A stretch of 64,000 nt of DNA, from the NCBI GenBank assembly GCA_000016765.1, contig CP000699.1:620001-684000 (forward strand). The letters are read 5' to 3'. The DNA comes from Rhizorhabdus wittichii RW1 (GTDB lineage Bacteria; Pseudomonadota; Alphaproteobacteria; Sphingomonadales; Sphingomonadaceae). Position numbers and translations under genes: made by a program. The notes beneath the pieces are model-generated. The model saw only the letters and a program-made list of their open reading frames with translations, made no database searches and was not told the origin of the DNA. Below are positions 12,325 to 23,430 of the stretch, piece after piece. Each line of letters starts with the position of its first letter. Positions within the stretch are counted from its first letter, which is position 1.

Positions 12325-12900
12325 TCAGCGCGGCCACATCCGCCGGAATTCGGGTTCCCCATCGATGAACTGATGCTTCAGCGCACCTGCGATATGGAGC
12401 AGCAGCAGGGCGATCAGCAGATAGCCGCCGATCTCGTGCATCTCGCCGAACAGGCCGTGGAGCATCTCCTTGCGGTCGGCCGGCAGCGCCATGACGAAGC
12501 CGGCGCGCGGGACGTCGAACAGGCCGAACAGGCGCAGCGGAATCTCGGGCGCCGCCTTCCATGCGCTGTCGTGCAGCCATCCGGTCAGCGGCATCCACAG
12601 CATGAAGAGATAGAGGCCGAAATGGGCCAGATGGGCCAGCCCCCGCTCCCATGCCGCCATGCCCGTCGAGAAGGGCGGCGGCCGGTGCCCGAGCCGCCAC
12701 AGGATGCGCAGCAGCACCAGGCCCAGCACCGTGATCCCGATCGACTTGTGGGTGTCGATCGCGAAGCGGATATCCTCGTCGGGGAGCTTCTCGGCGAGCA
12801 GGCCGAGCAGCAGGTTGCCGATCATCAGCACGGCGATCAGCCAATGCATGACGATCGCGAAACTGGTGTAGCGCCGCGTCAGCGGGCGTTCATCGGCCAT
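12325..12900 (-). CDS. Cytochrome b561 family membrane protein
   Basis: The 191-residue protein has four membrane helices and the YodB/CybB pattern: RYTSFAIVMHWLIAVLMIGN with a haem-ligand His in helix 1, DTHKSIGITVLGLVLLR in helix 2, and two further His-bearing helices (LHGLFGEMHEIGGYLLIALLLLHIAGALKH). Such proteins carry two b haems and oxidise quinol or deliver electrons in the inner membrane. It is probably monocistronic; folE begins 60 bp downstream. Confidence 0.9.
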   Translation of the reverse strand: MADERPLTRRYTSFAIVMHWLIAVLMIGNLLLGLLAEKLPDEDIRFAIDTHKSIGITVLGLVLLRILWRLGHRPPPFSTGMAAWERGLAHLAHFGLYLFMLWMPLTGWLHDSAWKAAPEIPLRLFGLFDVPRAGFVMALPADRKEMLHGLFGEMHEIGGYLLIALLLLHIAGALKHQFIDGEPEFRRMWPR

Positions 12901-16098: not shown

Positions 16099-16968
16099 TC
16101 AGGCGGCGGCGGCGCCCGGCCGGATCGTGTCATGCTCCTCGGCCAGCGCCTGGACCAGCGGCTGGAGCCGGCGGTCATAGCGAGCCAGCACGTCGGGGGC
16201 GCCGACCTGGGCATGGTGGGTGACGAAGCCCTCGCCGGTCCACAGGTGGAGCGCGACGCCGGGCTGCTCGGCGACGATCATCGGCCGCTCGTCGGGGCGT
16301 TCGGGATCGATCGGCGCCATCTCCAGCGCGACCTGCGGCGCGGTCGAGGGCGCGACGGCGAGCATGCGGCCGCGCCAGCTCGTGGTGATCGAGCGGTGGA
16401 TATGGCCCGAGATCATCGTCACGCCGGGCCGGTCGCCGATCGCCTTGTCGAGCATCACCACCCAGGGCTCGGTCTGATGCGCGGTCATCCAGGGGATGCC
16501 GGTCTCGATCGGCGGGTGATGGAGGACGATCAGCACCGGCTTGCCCGGCACCTCGGCTAGGCGCGCCTTGAGCCAGCCCGCGCGGCGATGGCCGAAGGCG
16601 CCGCCATGATGGCCGGGGTCGAGCGTGTCGAGGACGATGATCCGCACCTCGGGCTCGTCGATCACATATTGGACGAAGCCGTCCTCGACCGGCAGGTCGG
16701 GAAAGACCTGCTTCATCGCGGCGCGGTCGTCATGGTTGCCGACGCACAGATGGACCGGGAAGCCGCAGCCGTCGATCAGGCCCTTGAGCCGTTCATAGCT
16801 GGCCACGTCGCCATGGTCGGTGAGGTCGCCGGTCAGGAACAGCCGGTCGGGCACGACCGAAAGGCCCATCACATAGTCGATCGCGGCGGCGACCCGATGG
16901 AAGTTGAGCTCGTCGGGATTCTCGAGATCGAAGCCGATATGCAGGTCGGTCAGTTGCGCGATCAGCAT
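16099..16968 (-). CDS. CpdA-type metallophosphoesterase (3',5'-cAMP phosphodiesterase-like)
   Basis: The 289-residue cytosolic protein has the metallophosphoesterase motifs in order: QLTDLHIG, FLTGDLTDHG, CVGNHDDR, VLHHPPIE and GHIHRS. These match class III cyclic-nucleotide phosphodiesterases such as CpdA/Rv0805. Substrate is not certain, because the family includes broad phosphodiesterases. It is of interest that the adjacent operon encodes a protein with two cyclic-nucleotide-binding-type domains; the genes lie on the same strand with 128 bp between. Confidence 0.85.
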   Translation of the reverse strand: MLIAQLTDLHIGFDLENPDELNFHRVAAAIDYVMGLSVVPDRLFLTGDLTDHGDVASYERLKGLIDGCGFPVHLCVGNHDDRAAMKQVFPDLPVEDGFVQYVIDEPEVRIIVLDTLDPGHHGGAFGHRRAGWLKARLAEVPGKPVLIVLHHPPIETGIPWMTAHQTEPWVVMLDKAIGDRPGVTMISGHIHRSITTSWRGRMLAVAPSTAPQVALEMAPIDPERPDERPMIVAEQPGVALHLWTGEGFVTHHAQVGAPDVLARYDRRLQPLVQALAEEHDTIRPGAAAA

Positions 16969-17096: not shown

Positions 17097-18920
17097 TTAA
17101 ATACCGGTACCTGCCTGCTTCAGCGCTTTCTCCCGGATATGTTCGACCGCCTTGCCGCGGGCGCGATTGTCGCGAACCATCAGCGGAGCGAAGTCGTTCC
17201 GGTGATAGTCGTGGCACATCGCGCAGGCCGACGGCACTTCCTTGTGCGCGTCCTGGCCGCCATGGCATTCCTGACATTTGGCCAGCTTCGGCAGGTTGAC
17301 GTCGGACGACAGCTTCGATCCCTTCACCGCATGGCAGCTCGCGCAGCTCTCGGTGTCGTGCGAGGCATGGTCGAACCAGCCCTTCATCATGTAGCGCCGG
17401 CTGAGCGCCACCGGAGTGACCGCGAAGGGCGTCGTCGGATTGCCGGTCGCGCGGACCGTATGGCAATCGAAGCAGGCCCCGCCCTTCGAGAAGACCGCGC
17501 GGATCGCCTGGTCGGCATTGCCGATGTGCATCGCGCTGGTCTGCGCGAAGCTGGCGCGCTGCGCGGCGCTGGCGAAGTCGCCCGGACGGCGGCGGTCCAT
17601 GCCCTGCAACGCGGGATTGCGGGGCGCGCCGGCGCGGTAGAAGGCGCGGATGTCGGCGACGACCTGGGCCGGATCGCCGTGGCGCAGGGTGCGGATCGTG
17701 CCGCCGACCTGATCGAAGGCGAGCGAGTGGCAGGCGCCGCAGGCCGGCTCCATCTTCACCGCGACGAAGCTCGATCCGGTCGCGTCGCGGATGTGGCAGT
17801 TGGCGCAATCGAGCGGCGCGCCATAGCCTTCGGCCTTGCCCAGCGTCTTCGCCATCTGCGCCACGCCGTTGGTGGTCGACAGGTGGAGATCGTGCGGGAA
17901 TTTCAAGCCGTTGTCCTCCTTCGGGTTCGCGTCGAGCGAGACGCGGCGGAAGGACGGCAGGCCGTTCTCCCCGACGAAGCGGATCGTCGGCTCGAACTGC
18001 GGATGGTGATCGCCGAAATCATCGGCGTCCTTGAGCGCGGTGTCGATCCGCTTGCTCATATCGCCGTGGCAGTTGGTGCAGAAGCGCTCGTCGGTCACCG
18101 GCATCGCCGTCTGGCCCTGATGCTCGGTATGGCATTCGACGCAGCGGCCGGGCTGGATGCCGAAGATCCCGCCGACGAACTGCTTGGTGCCGTCGATGAT
18201 GCCGGGCGAGCCCTTGGCTTCCAGCAGCTTCGCCTTGTCGGCATGGTCGTGGACCTTGGTGTGACAGGCGACGCAGGCGGTATCGCGCACCGCTTCTCCG
18301 GCCTTCACATGGCAGGCCTGGCAGTTGTTCTCGAGGCTGCGATGGACCTGCGACAGCTTGCCCGACGTCCACAGCTCGTCGGCGTGGAACGCGACCTTGC
18401 GACTATTGTCTGTCGGCTGGGTGTGGATCGACACCAGCGGCCAGGCGAGGAAGATCGCGAGCACCAGCAATACGCCAGCCCAGGCCATGATGCGCCGGCC
18501 CGGCAGCACCGACGCCAGCGAGAAGACCCGTGCCTCCTCCTTCTCCTCGGACGCGTTGGAGATGGCGCCGACGCGTTCGACGGTGATGACGACCGCGCCC
18601 TTCTCGTCGCCCTCGCCCGGCTCGACCGACAGCGAATGGCTGCCGATGCGGATATTGGCGCCCGGCGAGGCGGAGAAGCGCTCATGCTCGGTCGACTTGC
18701 CGTCGACGAGGAAAGGCATGCCCGCGGTCGCGACGATCTCGACGGCGCCGCCCGCGGCGCTGCGGATCACCGCATGGTTCAGCGCCACCGCCAGGTCGGG
18801 CAGGTGGATGTCGCTCGACGGGCTGCGGCCGATGCTCAGCTCGGCCTTGTCGAAGCTCTTGGGGCGGACGATGTCCCGCCCGTCGGCGGTGCGCGCTACC
18901 GTGCGAACGATGAAGCTCAT
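17097..18920 (-). CDS. FHA-like domain / transmembrane / decahaem c-type cytochrome
   Basis: The 607-residue protein starts with an FHA-like domain (IGRSPSSDIHLPD at 30-42, LNHAVIR at 47-53). A membrane span follows at 144-163 (IMAWAGVLLVLAIFLAWPL), then a region with ten CxxCH haem sites: CQACH, CVACH, CVECH, CTNCH, CANCH, CGACH, CFDCH, CASCH, CQECH and CAMCH. The span predicts the FHA part in the cytosol and the haems in the periplasm. The canonical phosphothreonine-binding Ser is replaced (AVALNHA), so ligand binding is uncertain. It starts 10 bp after the membrane cytochrome b gene. Confidence 0.85.
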   Translation of the reverse strand: MSFIVRTVARTADGRDIVRPKSFDKAELSIGRSPSSDIHLPDLAVALNHAVIRSAAGGAVEIVATAGMPFLVDGKSTEHERFSASPGANIRIGSHSLSVEPGEGDEKGAVVITVERVGAISNASEEKEEARVFSLASVLPGRRIMAWAGVLLVLAIFLAWPLVSIHTQPTDNSRKVAFHADELWTSGKLSQVHRSLENNCQACHVKAGEAVRDTACVACHTKVHDHADKAKLLEAKGSPGIIDGTKQFVGGIFGIQPGRCVECHTEHQGQTAMPVTDERFCTNCHGDMSKRIDTALKDADDFGDHHPQFEPTIRFVGENGLPSFRRVSLDANPKEDNGLKFPHDLHLSTTNGVAQMAKTLGKAEGYGAPLDCANCHIRDATGSSFVAVKMEPACGACHSLAFDQVGGTIRTLRHGDPAQVVADIRAFYRAGAPRNPALQGMDRRRPGDFASAAQRASFAQTSAMHIGNADQAIRAVFSKGGACFDCHTVRATGNPTTPFAVTPVALSRRYMMKGWFDHASHDTESCASCHAVKGSKLSSDVNLPKLAKCQECHGGQDAHKEVPSACAMCHDYHRNDFAPLMVRDNRARGKAVEHIREKALKQAGTGI

Positions 18921-18930
18921 CTGCGCGTTC

Positions 18931-19809
18931 TCACCAATAATAGAAGACGGAGACGATGTGGACGAACAGCGCCGCGATCAGCGCGAAGGTCAGCGGGATA
19001 TGGAGATAGAGCCACACCTCCAGCAGCGCCTTCAGCCGCAGATGCTTGCGGATGCGCGACAGCGACGATCGCTTGCGCTCCAGCAGCACCTCGACATGGT
19101 CGTAGGGATCGGCGGCCGCCTCCTTGCGCCCCGCATGCGCGCGCACGGCGGCCAGCGCCGCGCGCGTCCCGCAGTTGCGATAGTGGCCGGTCAGCCGCGC
19201 GACCAGGCCGCCGCCGAACGGATCGTCGTCGAGCGCCATCCGGACGATCGCCGCGCCCTCGGCATCGAGCGGCTGCGCCGCCTCGTTGAGCTGGCGGTCG
19301 ATCATCCGCAGGTTGTCGAGCATCTGGACCTGGGTCGTCTCGCCCCGGTTGGCCGACAGCGCCTGGGGCAGCATCGCATAGGTGGCGATGCCGAACACGC
19401 CCGAGGCGATGACGATCATCATCAGCGCATAGGCGAGCGTGTGGACGTTCCACCCGAAGTCGAAGCCGGTGTGCAGCGTCGCGATGACGATCAGCGACAG
19501 GCCCAGATAGACATGGGCCGAGGTCCAGCTCTTGAGCGACCAGCGGCCCGGCGTGATCGCGCGCTTGCGGACGCCGAGCATCGTCAGCCACAGGATCAGG
19601 AGGACGCCGATCGTGCCGGTGGTGTAGCCGTAGATGCTGCCGCCATTGGGCTTCGGCTGGACGTCGTTGAACGCGTAGATCAGCAGCGCCACCGCGCTGA
19701 TCGCCAGCGCGATCTTGAGCCATTTATAGCCCTGGTAGCGCAGGAAGCCCTCATGCTCGGAGGCGCGCTCGCGACCCGTGGTCGCCTGCCGTAGCGATTT
19801 GCTGGCCAT
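18931..19809 (-). CDS. Five-helix membrane protein, probable diheme cytochrome b
   Basis: The 292-residue protein has membrane helices near 30-47, 62-79, 98-115, 122-148 and 262-287, with a soluble loop (about 150-255). His99 and His113 in helix 3, and His270 and His284 in helix 5, are both 14 residues apart, the spacing that allows two b haems to stack across a membrane. The start ATG 19809 shares its A with the TGA of the upstream gene (TGATG), so translation is probably coupled. It resembles cytochrome b561-like or ferric-reductase-like proteins only loosely. It should link the cytosolic Fe-S protein to the periplasmic haems. Confidence 0.8.
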   Translation of the reverse strand: MASKSLRQATTGRERASEHEGFLRYQGYKWLKIALAISAVALLIYAFNDVQPKPNGGSIYGYTTGTIGVLLILWLTMLGVRKRAITPGRWSLKSWTSAHVYLGLSLIVIATLHTGFDFGWNVHTLAYALMMIVIASGVFGIATYAMLPQALSANRGETTQVQMLDNLRMIDRQLNEAAQPLDAEGAAIVRMALDDDPFGGGLVARLTGHYRNCGTRAALAAVRAHAGRKEAAADPYDHVEVLLERKRSSLSRIRKHLRLKALLEVWLYLHIPLTFALIAALFVHIVSVFYYW

Positions 19810-22262
19810 CAGGCGTCGTCCCGTTGCAGCCGGGCGACCGTCAGGAATTCCTCGGGCGCGACACGGATCGCCGCCCCCGTCGGACAGGCGCGGACACAGC
19901 TCGGGCCGCCCTCGATACCCGAGCACATGTCGCACTTGACCGCGCGTTTCGCCTTCTCGACGCCGGGCGTCGCATTGGCATAGGCCCAGTCATGGCTGGG
20001 CTCTCCCGGTCCCGGCCCCTGCCCGAACAGGAACCATTTCCACAGGGAAGGCTTCTGCGGCGGCTCCTTCTCCATGCGGATCACGCCATAGGGGCAGTTC
20101 CGCTGGCAGTTGCCGCAGCCGATGCAGGTGTCGTCGATATAGACCTCGCCGTCCTGGCCGCGATGGATCGCGGTCGGCGGGCAGTCGGCCATGCAGTGCG
20201 GATGCTCGCAATGGCGGCAACTCGTCGGCACGTGGAGATGCGCGAAGGTGCGCCCCGCCTCGCGGTCGAGCCGCGAGATGCCCTCATGGCTGTCGGCGCA
20301 GGCCTTCTCGCAATTGTCGCAGCCGACGCAGAGATTCTCGTCGATCAGCAGCACGTCGGTCGCCTCGCCGACGCCGTTGTCGACCAGGAAGTTCGCGACC
20401 GAGCTGTACATGTCGACGACGGTGGCGAAGCTGTCCTTCTTCGCCTCGATGAACGAGGCGAGGTCCTCGCGCTCGCCGATCGCCACCTTCGCCCGGGCGA
20501 AGAATTCCGGCTTGGCCTCCAGCAGCCGGCGGAACGCATCGCCGCCGAGCTTGATCACCTCCGACTTCACCGCGGCGCGCACGGTCTGCTTGCGGATGCC
20601 GTTGTCGAACAGTTCGAGCTCGCCGACATAATTGCCGGCGGGAACATAGGAGAGGAACACCGGCTTGCCGCCGATCGCCTTCTCGACGACCACCGATCCC
20701 GACCGGATCACATAGACGTCATTGCCTTCCTCGCCCTCGCGGAAGATCGCCTCGCCGGCGCGGATGCCCTTGATCTCGGCGGTCTCCAGCACCTCGGCCA
20801 GGTCGGCGGGCTGGAGCCCCGACTGCCACATCTGGAGGAGCTGGCGCTCGGTGGAGATGCGGGTGACGGCGCGCTTCACGCCCGGCACCGACGCCATCAG
20901 CTTGAGGATCGCGTTGCGCGGGATCTCGACGACGATGGTCTCGGCGACCGAGCGGATCGTCGAGCCGCGGCGGCGACCGGAGACGAGGCCGACCTCGCCG
21001 AAGATCGATCCCTCGGGAATGACGATCCCGGTCGAGCGGCCGTCGGGCAGCGGGATGTCGACCGATCCTTGCGCGATGCAGAACAGCGACGATCCCGGCG
21101 CGTTCTTCTCGAAGATGATGTCGTTCTTGCCGTAGTAGCGGACTTCGGAGTCCAGCATGAACTCGCGCATCTGCAACGGCGACAGGTCGTTGAGGATCTG
21201 GACGTTGGTGCGGATGAACTCCAGCCACTCGTCGACCGACTTCTTGACCGGCAGGTTGACGAATTTGCCTTCGAGGATCGGTTCGTCGGCGGGCTTCAGG
21301 CCGGTGTTGCCGTTGATGAACTCGACGACGTCATAGCCCTGGTTCATGCAGTGCTTGATCAGCGGATAGCCGGCCAGCGCGCCGATCACGTAGATGCCGG
21401 CGTTGGTCGTCTCGAACTGCGGCGACAGCGTCGGGAAGGCCTCGCGGTCCGGGCTGGTGAACTCGATCCCGCATTCCTCGATGAACTTGCGCGGCGCGGC
21501 CGAGCCCATGCGCGCGATCACGCGGTCGCAGCGGATGCGCGCCTCGCCGTCGCGGGTGTCGAGGACGAGATGCCCCGCCTCGAGCCGGTTCGGCGAGGTG
21601 TCGGTCATCACGTTCATCCGCCCCTCGTCGCGCGCCTGCATCAGCAGCTTGACGTTGGCGCCCTTGGCGCGGCTGAAATCGGCGCCGCGGTTGAGGATGG
21701 TGACGATGTTGCCCTGCGCCGCGTCCTGCGCGAGGCCCAGCGCATTCTCGATGCCGGCGTCGCCCGATCCGACGACGGTGATGTGCTCGTCGACATATTC
21801 GCCGGGATCGTCGAGCTGATACTGGACGTGGATGCCGCTGCTCTCGATGCCCGGCGCGCGCAGCAGGTTCGGGTTGCCCTGGGTGCCGATCGCCAGGATG
21901 ACCGTCTCGGCATGGATCTCGGTCTTGTCGGCCAGGGTGAGGACGAACGCGCCCTTCTGCCCGGTGATCGCCTTCACCTCGCTCTTGAAGCGGACGTTGA
22001 CCTTGTGGCCGGCGGTCTGCTCGTCCCAGATGCCGAGGATCTTCTCGCGCTTGCCCGCATCGAAATCGACGTCCGAGCGCAGCACGAGCTGGCTCGGCGT
22101 CGCCATGACGTGCTTGCCCTTCTGATATTTGAAGATCGTATCGGAAAGGTGGTCGGTCTTTTCGAGCAGGACGTGCGGTATGCCGAGCTTGGCCGCGTGA
22201 GCCGCAGCGCTCATCCCCGCCGGCCCCGAGCCAACGATGGCAATACGGTAGGTATCCGCCAC
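19809..22262 (-). CDS. FAD/NAD(P)H oxidoreductase fused to two cNMP-binding-type domains and a four-cluster ferredoxin
   Basis: The 817-residue protein has an FAD Rossmann region (IVGSGPAGMSAA, 9-20), an NAD(P)H Rossmann (VVGSGDAGIENA, 163-174), and no CxxC redox disulfide. It resembles YpdA/thioredoxin-reductase-like flavoproteins. Two cyclic-nucleotide-binding-type folds follow (about 360-470 and 485-600; FGEVGL and GELEL segments). The C-terminus has Cys 645/648/651/655, 682/685/690/694, 713/716/719/723 and 777/780/789/793, sixteen ligands for four [4Fe-4S] clusters, as in DmsB/NrfC. GTG 22262 is preferred: AGGGGGAA lies 4 nt upstream and the flavin motif follows. A longer TTG start at 22343 lacks an RBS. 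Confidence 0.87.
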   Translation of the reverse strand: MADTYRIAIVGSGPAGMSAAAHAAKLGIPHVLLEKTDHLSDTIFKYQKGKHVMATPSQLVLRSDVDFDAGKREKILGIWDEQTAGHKVNVRFKSEVKAITGQKGAFVLTLADKTEIHAETVILAIGTQGNPNLLRAPGIESSGIHVQYQLDDPGEYVDEHITVVGSGDAGIENALGLAQDAAQGNIVTILNRGADFSRAKGANVKLLMQARDEGRMNVMTDTSPNRLEAGHLVLDTRDGEARIRCDRVIARMGSAAPRKFIEECGIEFTSPDREAFPTLSPQFETTNAGIYVIGALAGYPLIKHCMNQGYDVVEFINGNTGLKPADEPILEGKFVNLPVKKSVDEWLEFIRTNVQILNDLSPLQMREFMLDSEVRYYGKNDIIFEKNAPGSSLFCIAQGSVDIPLPDGRSTGIVIPEGSIFGEVGLVSGRRRGSTIRSVAETIVVEIPRNAILKLMASVPGVKRAVTRISTERQLLQMWQSGLQPADLAEVLETAEIKGIRAGEAIFREGEEGNDVYVIRSGSVVVEKAIGGKPVFLSYVPAGNYVGELELFDNGIRKQTVRAAVKSEVIKLGGDAFRRLLEAKPEFFARAKVAIGEREDLASFIEAKKDSFATVVDMYSSVANFLVDNGVGEATDVLLIDENLCVGCDNCEKACADSHEGISRLDREAGRTFAHLHVPTSCRHCEHPHCMADCPPTAIHRGQDGEVYIDDTCIGCGNCQRNCPYGVIRMEKEPPQKPSLWKWFLFGQGPGPGEPSHDWAYANATPGVEKAKRAVKCDMCSGIEGGPSCVRACPTGAAIRVAPEEFLTVARLQRDDA

Positions 22263-22455: not shown

Positions 22456-23430
22456 GTGACGAAGGACACCACCGCGAACAAAGGTCTCTCGCTGCCCTTC
22501 GCGCGGATCGCGCTGATCCTCGCCGCGCTGATCGCCCTGGCGGCGGTCGTCCTGGCGGTGACGCGCTCGCGGTCGGGGCTCGATGAGACCGCCGCGCCGG
22601 GACAGGGAGCGGGCCAGGCCGGCGACGTCGGATCGATGATCGCCGGGCTCGAAAAGCGGCTCAAGGACAATCCGGACGACTTCAAGGGCTGGGCGACGCT
22701 CGGCTGGTCCTATTATAATCTCGGCCGCTATGCCGACGCCGCGCAGGCCTATGCCAGGGCGACGAAGATCGATCCGTCCAACGCGGAGATCTGGTCGGCG
22801 CTGGGCGAGGTCCAGCTCCTGTCGGGTCCCGGCGGGGTCACTCCGGCGGCCGAGGCCTCGTTCCGCAAGGCGGTGTCGATCGACCCGACCGACCATCGCG
22901 CCCGCTATTTCCTCGCGGTGAAGAAGGACCAGGACGGCGACCACAAGGGCGCGATCGACGACTGGATCGCGATCCTCAAGGACAGCCCCGCCGGCGCGCC
23001 CTGGGAAGGGCCGGTCCGCGAGCTGATCGCCAAGGTCTCCGCCGAGCACAAGATCGACGTGGCGGGCCGCGTGCCGCCGCCTTCCGTGCCCCAGCAGTCG
23101 TCCTCGGCCGCGCCGACGGCCGGCGGCGACAGCGTCGCGACCGCCGGCATCCCGGGGCCCAGCGCCGCCGACCTCAAGGCCGCGACGGCGATGACCCCGT
23201 CGCAGCAGGACGAGCTCGCCCGCTCGATGGTCGCCCGCCTCGCCGCCCGGCTGGAGCAGAATCCGCGCGACGCCGATCGCTGGATCATGCTGATGCGCTC
23301 GCGGATGATGCTCAACGACCCCGCCGGCGCGAAGGACGCGCTCGCCAGGGCGAAGACCGTCTTCAAGGGCGACGCCGGCCAGATCGCCCGCTTCGACGAG
23401 GCCGCGAAGACGCTCGGCGTGGAGCGCTGA
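22456..23430 (+). CDS. TPR protein with N-terminal membrane anchor, CcmI/NrfG-like
   Basis: The 324-residue protein has a membrane helix (IALILAALIALAAVVLAV, about 18-36) and TPR units (GWATLGWSYYNLGRYADAAQAYARATKIDP, then further units) outside the cytosol. The layout matches the C-terminal domain of CcmI/CycH or NrfG, which bind apocytochrome c for haem ligation. No Ccm genes adjoin it. It diverges from the decahaem operon across a 193-bp region, so it may help maturation of that cytochrome; this is inference. The start is GTG 22456; no strong SD is visible. A generic TPR protein is the alternative. Confidence 0.7.
   Translation: MTKDTTANKGLSLPFARIALILAALIALAAVVLAVTRSRSGLDETAAPGQGAGQAGDVGSMIAGLEKRLKDNPDDFKGWATLGWSYYNLGRYADAAQAYARATKIDPSNAEIWSALGEVQLLSGPGGVTPAAEASFRKAVSIDPTDHRARYFLAVKKDQDGDHKGAIDDWIAILKDSPAGAPWEGPVRELIAKVSAEHKIDVAGRVPPPSVPQQSSSAAPTAGGDSVATAGIPGPSAADLKAATAMTPSQQDELARSMVARLAARLEQNPRDADRWIMLMRSRMMLNDPAGAKDALARAKTVFKGDAGQIARFDEAAKTLGVER

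Follow-up and report, generated by a model that had tools for sequence, protein, structure and literature searches.

An operon of Rhizorhabdus wittichii RW1 as a candidate inner-membrane half of an NAD(P)H-driven electron conduit

Background

Work on extracellular electron transfer has concentrated on anaerobic metal reducers and iron oxidisers, and sphingomonads are regarded as strict aerobes. The genome of Rhizorhabdus wittichii RW1 (5,915,246 bp in three contigs; nearest named relatives Rhizorhabdus and Sphingomonas) contains three adjacent genes whose products look like a path for electrons from NAD(P)H in the cytoplasm to multihaem cytochrome c in the periplasm. They lie in a stretch of 64,000 nucleotides (contig CP000699.1, positions 620,001 to 684,000), here called the window, to which positions given without a locus or contig name refer. 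The question raised by these genes is whether they work as one unit, where their electrons would go and what would control the flow. The passages retrieved from papers on Sphingomonas wittichii RW1 do not mention these genes.

Organisation and distribution of the operon

An earlier note on this DNA had described three genes, and re-reading of the sequence confirmed it in every detail: the coordinates, the TGATG overlap, in which the stop of gene 1 (TGA) and the start of gene 2 (ATG) have one base in common, and the gap of 10 bp between gene 2 and the start of gene 3. The genes are:

19809-22262, minus strand: gene 1 (817 aa, GTG start), flavin/NAD(P)H module, two cyclic-nucleotide-binding (cNMP) domains and a four-cluster [4Fe-4S] module
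18931-19809, minus strand: gene 2 (292 aa), five-helix inner-membrane protein, two b haems predicted
17097-18920, minus strand: gene 3 (607 aa), FHA domain, membrane helix and ten predicted c haems

Gene 3 was found in 26 of 289 searched genomes of the class. Nearly all of its neighbourhoods also carry gene 2, plus the end of gene 1 where the stretch is long enough, and the wider stretches around it have the order 1-2-3, which recurs outside the class. The exception is one genus (loci L032 and L099), in which gene 1 is found on the far side of the outer-membrane genes described below. At least 589 relatives of gene 2 were confirmed, and in the 80 named sphingomonad loci with gene 2 that were examined gene 1 and gene 3 were each found 79 times. 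Two genomes outside the class have genes 1 and 2 fused in a frame of about 1120 aa (L205:3052-6423 and L206:6850-10206); the decahaem homologue beside these fusions has nine CxxCH motifs only. The earlier note had made synteny in other genomes the test of its operon, and the possibility that the three genes never co-occur elsewhere is refuted by this gene content and order, observed directly across the class and beyond it. In the window genome gene 2 is present in a single copy.

Modules and cofactor ligands

The product of gene 1 can be divided as follows:

21303-22262, minus strand: flavin/NAD(P)H module (residues 1-320; Pyr_redox_2/3), YpdA/TrxR-like fold without CxxC
20883-21185, minus strand: first cNMP-binding domain (about residues 360-460), pocket E423 and R432
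20469-20810, minus strand: second cNMP-binding domain (about residues 485-598), pocket E548 and R557
19854-20351, minus strand: module of four [4Fe-4S] ferredoxin clusters (residues 638-803), including PF13247, with Fer4 matches

Pfam recognised Pyr_redox_2/3, two cNMP_binding domains (PF00027, 116.4 bits, above the gathering score) and 4Fe-4S domains, of which Fer4_11 (PF13247) scored 42.5 bits against a cut-off of 26.2. The sixteen cysteines of the four [4Fe-4S] sets are invariant in all 94 gene 1 homologues, and the Fe-S module is similar to the NrfC/DmsB/HydN-type partners of membrane subunits. The flavin module is alike in fold to the YpdA/Bdr flavoproteins but lacks the cysteines of a disulfide reductase: CxxC occurs in 0/94 homologues, and the YpdA-type catalytic Cys in 3/94, being Ala in the window protein. 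A YpdA/Bdr disulfide reductase identity was rejected on this absence and on the TIGR04018 score (114.9 versus 339.9 bits). Since both kinds of cysteine are missing, disulfide reduction is an improbable role for the module, which would more likely pass electrons to the fused Fe-S module.

In gene 2 the conserved histidines are found in two repeated motifs:

19471-19527, minus strand: WX3HX13H on TM3 (W95, H99, H113)
18958-19014, minus strand: WX3HX13H on TM5 (W266, H270, H284)

The AlphaFold model has five long membrane helices (mean pLDDT 71), and histidines 99, 113, 270 and 284 are kept in 104-105 of 105 homologues, in agreement with the five-helix protein and the bis-His pairs 99/270 and 113/284 proposed before; His 123 is also invariant or nearly so. 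Two such motifs did not arise in any of 20,000 shuffles of the gene. From the charge pattern and the order of the helices, the pair H99/H270 would face the cytoplasm and the pair H113/H284 the periplasm. Membership of the prokaryotic cytochrome b561 family was rejected, as gene 2 scored 25.6 bits with PF01292 against a gathering cut-off of 30.1. The ferric reductase domain (PF01794) was also below threshold (15.5 versus 28 bits). Profile searches gave no solved relative and Foldseek nothing below E 0.5, and the matches of VIA-align, with middling Z, were rejected as proteins that merely look alike in having long helices. At 12325-12900 on the minus strand, about 4 kb off the operon, there is a true cytochrome b561 gene (PF01292, 110 bits), which was seen in 2/56 loci of relatives.

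Gene 3 combines two very different parts:

18591-18920, minus strand: FHA domain (residues 1-110), predicted cytoplasmic
17202-18344, minus strand: ten CxxCH motifs and ten conserved distal His (residues 193-573), predicted periplasmic

Pfam matches were to FHA (PF00498, 23.2 bits, cut-off 20.7) and to multihaem c3/c7 domains. The histidines of all ten CxxCH motifs are present in 100/100 homologues, and exactly ten further histidines are 98-100% conserved, which is what would be expected for ten bis-His haems. The FHA domain matches GarA/OdhI and keeps part of the known surface (G31 and R32 in 100/100 homologues, H49 in 90/100). At the Ser position, however, E, N, T, A or D is found, and the Asn is replaced by Asp in 66/100 homologues. 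A phospho-threonine-reading domain is therefore doubtful, the contact Ser being lost in nearly all homologues and the Asn mostly Asp, and for the same reason docking appears a more likely role than a phospho-switch.

The Pfam matches and the conserved ligands thus agree with the FAD/NAD(P)H, Fe-S and ten-CxxCH modules that the earlier note had assigned. The comparison of homologues supports the view that the three parts are one conserved unit in which every cofactor ligand is kept, and we infer that the cofactors are bound.

Neighbouring genes and possible regulation

Two neighbours accompany the operon:

16099-16968, minus strand: cyclic-nucleotide phosphodiesterase, SpdA/CpdA-like, conserved downstream neighbour of gene 3
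22456-23430, plus strand: CcmH/CycH-type TPR protein of cytochrome c maturation (PF23914, 96.6 bits), conserved divergent neighbour

The phosphodiesterase gene follows gene 3 directly on the same strand in 74/74 testable sphingomonad loci, and the CcmH/CycH-type gene is placed divergently upstream of gene 1 in 64/67. When ten neighbours from the window were sought in 56 full loci, the phosphodiesterase was found 55 times, the CcmH/CycH-type gene 53 times and the other eight 1-3 times each. The adjacency of the phosphodiesterase is confined to Sphingomonadales. This protein scored 148 bits with the curated SpdA model NF050112, below its cut-off of 400, but contains the DxH, GD, GNHD and GHxH metallophosphatase motifs, and so would represent a subfamily related to SpdA.

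The tandem cNMP domains of gene 1 can be aligned to the regulatory half of PKA and to that of PKG. Fold and ligand pocket are alike, the difference being that the pair in gene 1 would regulate a redox chain and not a kinase. In the first pocket E423 and R432 are both kept in 94/94 homologues; in the second, E548 is kept in 92/94 and R557 in 94/94. Because Glu and Arg are retained in both pockets, the domains align with PKA/PKG and a phosphodiesterase gene adjoins the operon, cyclic-nucleotide control of the first electron step is plausible. It had been suggested before that cyclic-nucleotide-type and FHA domains may gate the flow: the first half of this idea is strengthened by the pockets and by the 74/74 phosphodiesterase, and the second, as far as it means gating by phospho-threonine, is weakened by the loss of the Ser. 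No oxygen-responsive promoter motif was apparent upstream of gene 1, boxes of the FNR, CRP and OxyR types being found in only 0-1 of 96 loci.

The host genome has two class III cyclases. One of these, a CHASE2 adenylate/guanylate cyclase (C1:236817-238865, L091:5817-7865), is encoded 11.5 kb upstream of the outer-membrane decahaem gene described in the following section. The same arrangement (6-27 kb upstream, same strand) was found in 24/32 sphingomonad genomes, against 1/32 for a ClpX control. Along with the cyclase, the stretch retains a gene for a giant secreted protein, one for the likely partner in its secretion and several of metabolism, each in 5-8 of 10 genomes. We considered this cyclase as source of the ligand and set it aside as a weak lead, as the giant secreted-protein module is kept along with it and the link is probably one of neighbourhood synteny; the cyclase probably belongs to that adjoining module.

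Distant partner genes

Clustering of neighbours revealed what comes next in many relatives: genes for an HbpS-like protein, a barrel of about 600 aa and a decahaem-LVIVD protein of about 1250 aa. In several relatives the operon and the partner genes form one same-strand cluster. In the window genome the partners are found about 400 kb from the operon:

about C1:221,290-230,740, one strand, tightly packed: tetrahaem c554-family cytochrome, HbpS-like lipoprotein, barrel and decahaem-LVIVD protein

The tetrahaem cytochrome (P0007) is present in 25/26 genomes with the operon and in 1/263 others (p 9e-34) and the decahaem-LVIVD protein (P0004) in 20/26 and 0/263 (Fisher p 7e-26), p-values that are inflated by the relatedness of the 289 genomes. 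The barrel is found in the same 20 genomes as the decahaem-LVIVD protein, and the latter occurs, adjacent or distant, in 32/32 searched sphingomonad genomes with the operon. Six of the 26 operon genomes have no outer-membrane set, and all of these except G120 retain the tetrahaem protein. One sampled genome of the class (G011:C70:21228-22445; assembly 77% complete) is alone in having the tetrahaem cytochrome with the operon not found. This co-occurrence is a direct observation, and since it is strict in spite of the distant location it argues for joint function of the operon and the partner set. We conclude that the three genes account for just the inner half of a larger system. The three-gene chain proposed earlier is borne out in its parts, but it was incomplete, the tetrahaem and outer-membrane partners lying elsewhere in the genome.

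The barrel was modelled (mean pLDDT 58) with 18 long strands; its first match was AlgE (E 1e-14), OprD-type channels were matched too, and the C-terminal residue is Phe or Tyr in all twelve aligned copies. It is very likely an outer-membrane protein and, judging from the model, probably narrower than the MtrB type and narrow for a haem chain. The decahaem-LVIVD protein contains ten CxxCH motifs and LVIVD repeats, with about 80 residues per haem, and is less wire-like than gene 3. It lacks a lipobox and may be periplasmic.

Other features of these regions are the lipobox (LASC) and repeated HbpS-like stretches of the HbpS-like protein (L090:15981-17993), which in a conduit might handle haem or metal, and, in nine genomes, a secreted protein of about 150 aa encoded between gene 3 and the HbpS-like gene (for example L034:8458-8910 and L039:10634-11113), for which Pfam gave no match. 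A tyrosine recombinase of the phage integrase family (L090:8317-9822) directly adjoins the outer-membrane gene set in this genome and may bear on the separation of the set from the operon.

Proposed electron path and alternatives

We lean towards the reading that the operon is the inner-membrane half of a conduit that takes electrons from NAD(P)H towards the outer membrane and may be controlled by cyclic nucleotides. Electrons would pass from NAD(P)H, presumably NADPH rather than NADH, to FAD and the four [4Fe-4S] clusters, all within gene 1, then to the two b haems of gene 2 and so across the membrane, and from there to the ten bis-His c haems of the membrane-tethered gene 3. The periplasmic tetrahaem cytochrome would be the next carrier and would deliver, in most hosts, to the outer-membrane set of decahaem-LVIVD protein, 18-strand barrel and HbpS-like lipoprotein, or beyond it. 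A cyclic nucleotide, bound between the flavin and Fe-S modules, would probably switch the first step, its level being set by the neighbouring phosphodiesterase. NAD(P)H as the partner is supported by a sister set with a different, non-homologous NAD(P)H reductase (see below).

Several observations weigh against this reading: the 18 strands of the barrel and its weak model, the missing lipobox of P0004, the 6/26 genomes devoid of the outer-membrane set, the restriction of the adjacent phosphodiesterase to Sphingomonadales and the failure to find a promoter motif that responds to oxygen. The likeness of the barrel to the 18-strand AlgE/OprD proteins and not to MtrB, the wide spacing of the haems in P0004 and the retention of the tetrahaem protein in all but one of those six genomes could also be taken to mean that the terminal step is in the periplasm or the outer membrane, with the decahaem-LVIVD or the tetrahaem protein reducing a soluble compound, the barrel serving as its substrate channel and nothing exported to solids. 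This is a possibility that we consider rather unlikely, as the decahaem-LVIVD protein and the barrel always co-occur and P0004 has no resemblance to known reductases.

The direction of the flow is itself a matter of interpretation. Electrons from an outside donor such as Fe(II), Mn(II) or another could run through the chain to NAD(P)+, which we find improbable because the operon shows no energy input for such an uphill reduction and sphingomonads are heterotrophs. In favour of it, He et al. 2017 (PMC5566968) modelled inward flow for the PCC3/PCC4 clusters of iron oxidisers, which have the same type of inner-membrane protein, there towards quinone, and also suggested quinone exchange for such proteins. 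The latter, together with the resemblance of the Fe-S module to NrfC/DmsB/HydN-type partners, would suit an arrangement in which the quinone pool is the redox partner of gene 2, leaving gene 1 as a side-branch for input or as a sensor. We hold this to be the least probable of the readings: with a flavin module for NAD(P)H fused to the Fe-S protein, and a non-homologous reductase in its place in the sister set, the chain has no need of input from quinone, and there is no solved relative with a quinone site.

The outward conduit, if correct, would be a complete and conserved candidate in sphingomonads that are common in soil and water, with NAD(P)H as its starting point and a built-in pair of second-messenger domains. 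Export of electrons by such aerobes, with metals, humics, other cells or periplasmic enzymes as the receivers, would become testable, and so would its switching by cyclic nucleotides. We are tempted to go further and imagine a cyclic-nucleotide-gated, NAD(P)H-driven machine for extracellular electron export, widespread in sphingomonads, with its own phosphodiesterase and a decahaem-LVIVD protein at the surface, but this is tentative and we regard it as doubtful.

Comparison with known systems

The literature searched for FHA or LVIVD combined with multihaem cytochromes contained nothing relevant. The membrane domain of ferric reductases and NADPH oxidases (PF01794) has, as here, two HX13H bis-His pairs across the membrane and cytoplasmic NAD(P)H; it differs in having direct flavin contact where the operon has Fe-S clusters, and the operon would pass its electrons onward to c haems. 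MtrCAB, PioAB and MtoAB share decahaem cytochromes, an outer-membrane barrel and a proposed conduit through the envelope, but their input is quinol via CymA instead of NAD(P)H, and the barrel of the RW1 genome is probably of another, smaller type, with 18 strands in a weak model (mean pLDDT 58) against the 26-28 of MtrB. Gene 3 was rejected as a member of the DmsE/MtrA family (13.4 versus 192.2 bits). The Geobacter ExtHIJKLMNOPQS proteins include a porin-like protein, multihaem cytochromes and an inner-membrane cytochrome b, and Ext uses Rieske/cytochrome b proteins (PMC5877670). P0004 has short local similarity to ExtM, and membership of Ext was rejected on its score with NF040943 (65.9 versus 800 bits).

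The closest description is that of the "PCC3" and "PCC4" clusters by He, Barco, Emerson and Roden 2017 (PMC5566968), which were defined in silico only, by comparative genomics. The inner-membrane proteins of these clusters are marked by five helices, with SGxxG in TM4 and WX3HX13H in both TM3 and TM5; in PCC4 subgroup II the gene of this protein is preceded by a PF13247 Fe-S gene, and PCC4 has three periplasmic multihaem cytochromes with 4, 5 and 10 haems (PMC5566968). Gene 2 matches this signature exactly, and a PF13247 Fe-S gene is likewise placed upstream of it. The claim that no characterised system has this make-up is therefore literally true, but the same inner-membrane class, with an Fe-S gene and multihaem cytochromes, had been described in silico as PCC4 in 2017 (PMC5566968). 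No characterisation of PCC-type inner-membrane proteins was found in the literature searched, and this orphan family would gain functional partners.

PCC4 and the present system share tetrahaem and decahaem c cytochromes and fusions of genes 1 and 2. A porin belongs to the cluster in PCC4; its putative counterpart, the barrel, is clustered in many relatives and 400 kb off here. The haem set differs, with 4 (P0007), 10 (gene 3) and 10 (P0004) haems and no pentahaem protein. Moreover the published account of PCC4 does not include the fused NAD(P)H flavin module, the FHA domain on the decahaem protein, the decahaem-LVIVD protein, the HbpS-like lipoprotein and the phosphodiesterase.

The inner-membrane and cNMP/Fe-S proteins of the window have homologues in two PCC4-like loci from other classes, L207 and L208. 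These loci (L207:2-8498 and L208:4844-12149) encode a c554-type cytochrome, a cNMP/Fe-S protein without flavin module, the inner-membrane protein and, as a protein of its own, an FNR-type NAD(P)H/[2Fe-2S] reductase. They also encode a decahaem protein, which has a Cys-rich N-terminus instead of FHA, and a barrel-like ORF in L207 has no similarity to the barrel of the window genome. As the haem numbers differ and the comparison was with published descriptions and not sequences, we do not file the present system as PCC4; the most fitting view is that of a sister type, set apart by those descriptions, with a different, fused NAD(P)H flavoprotein.
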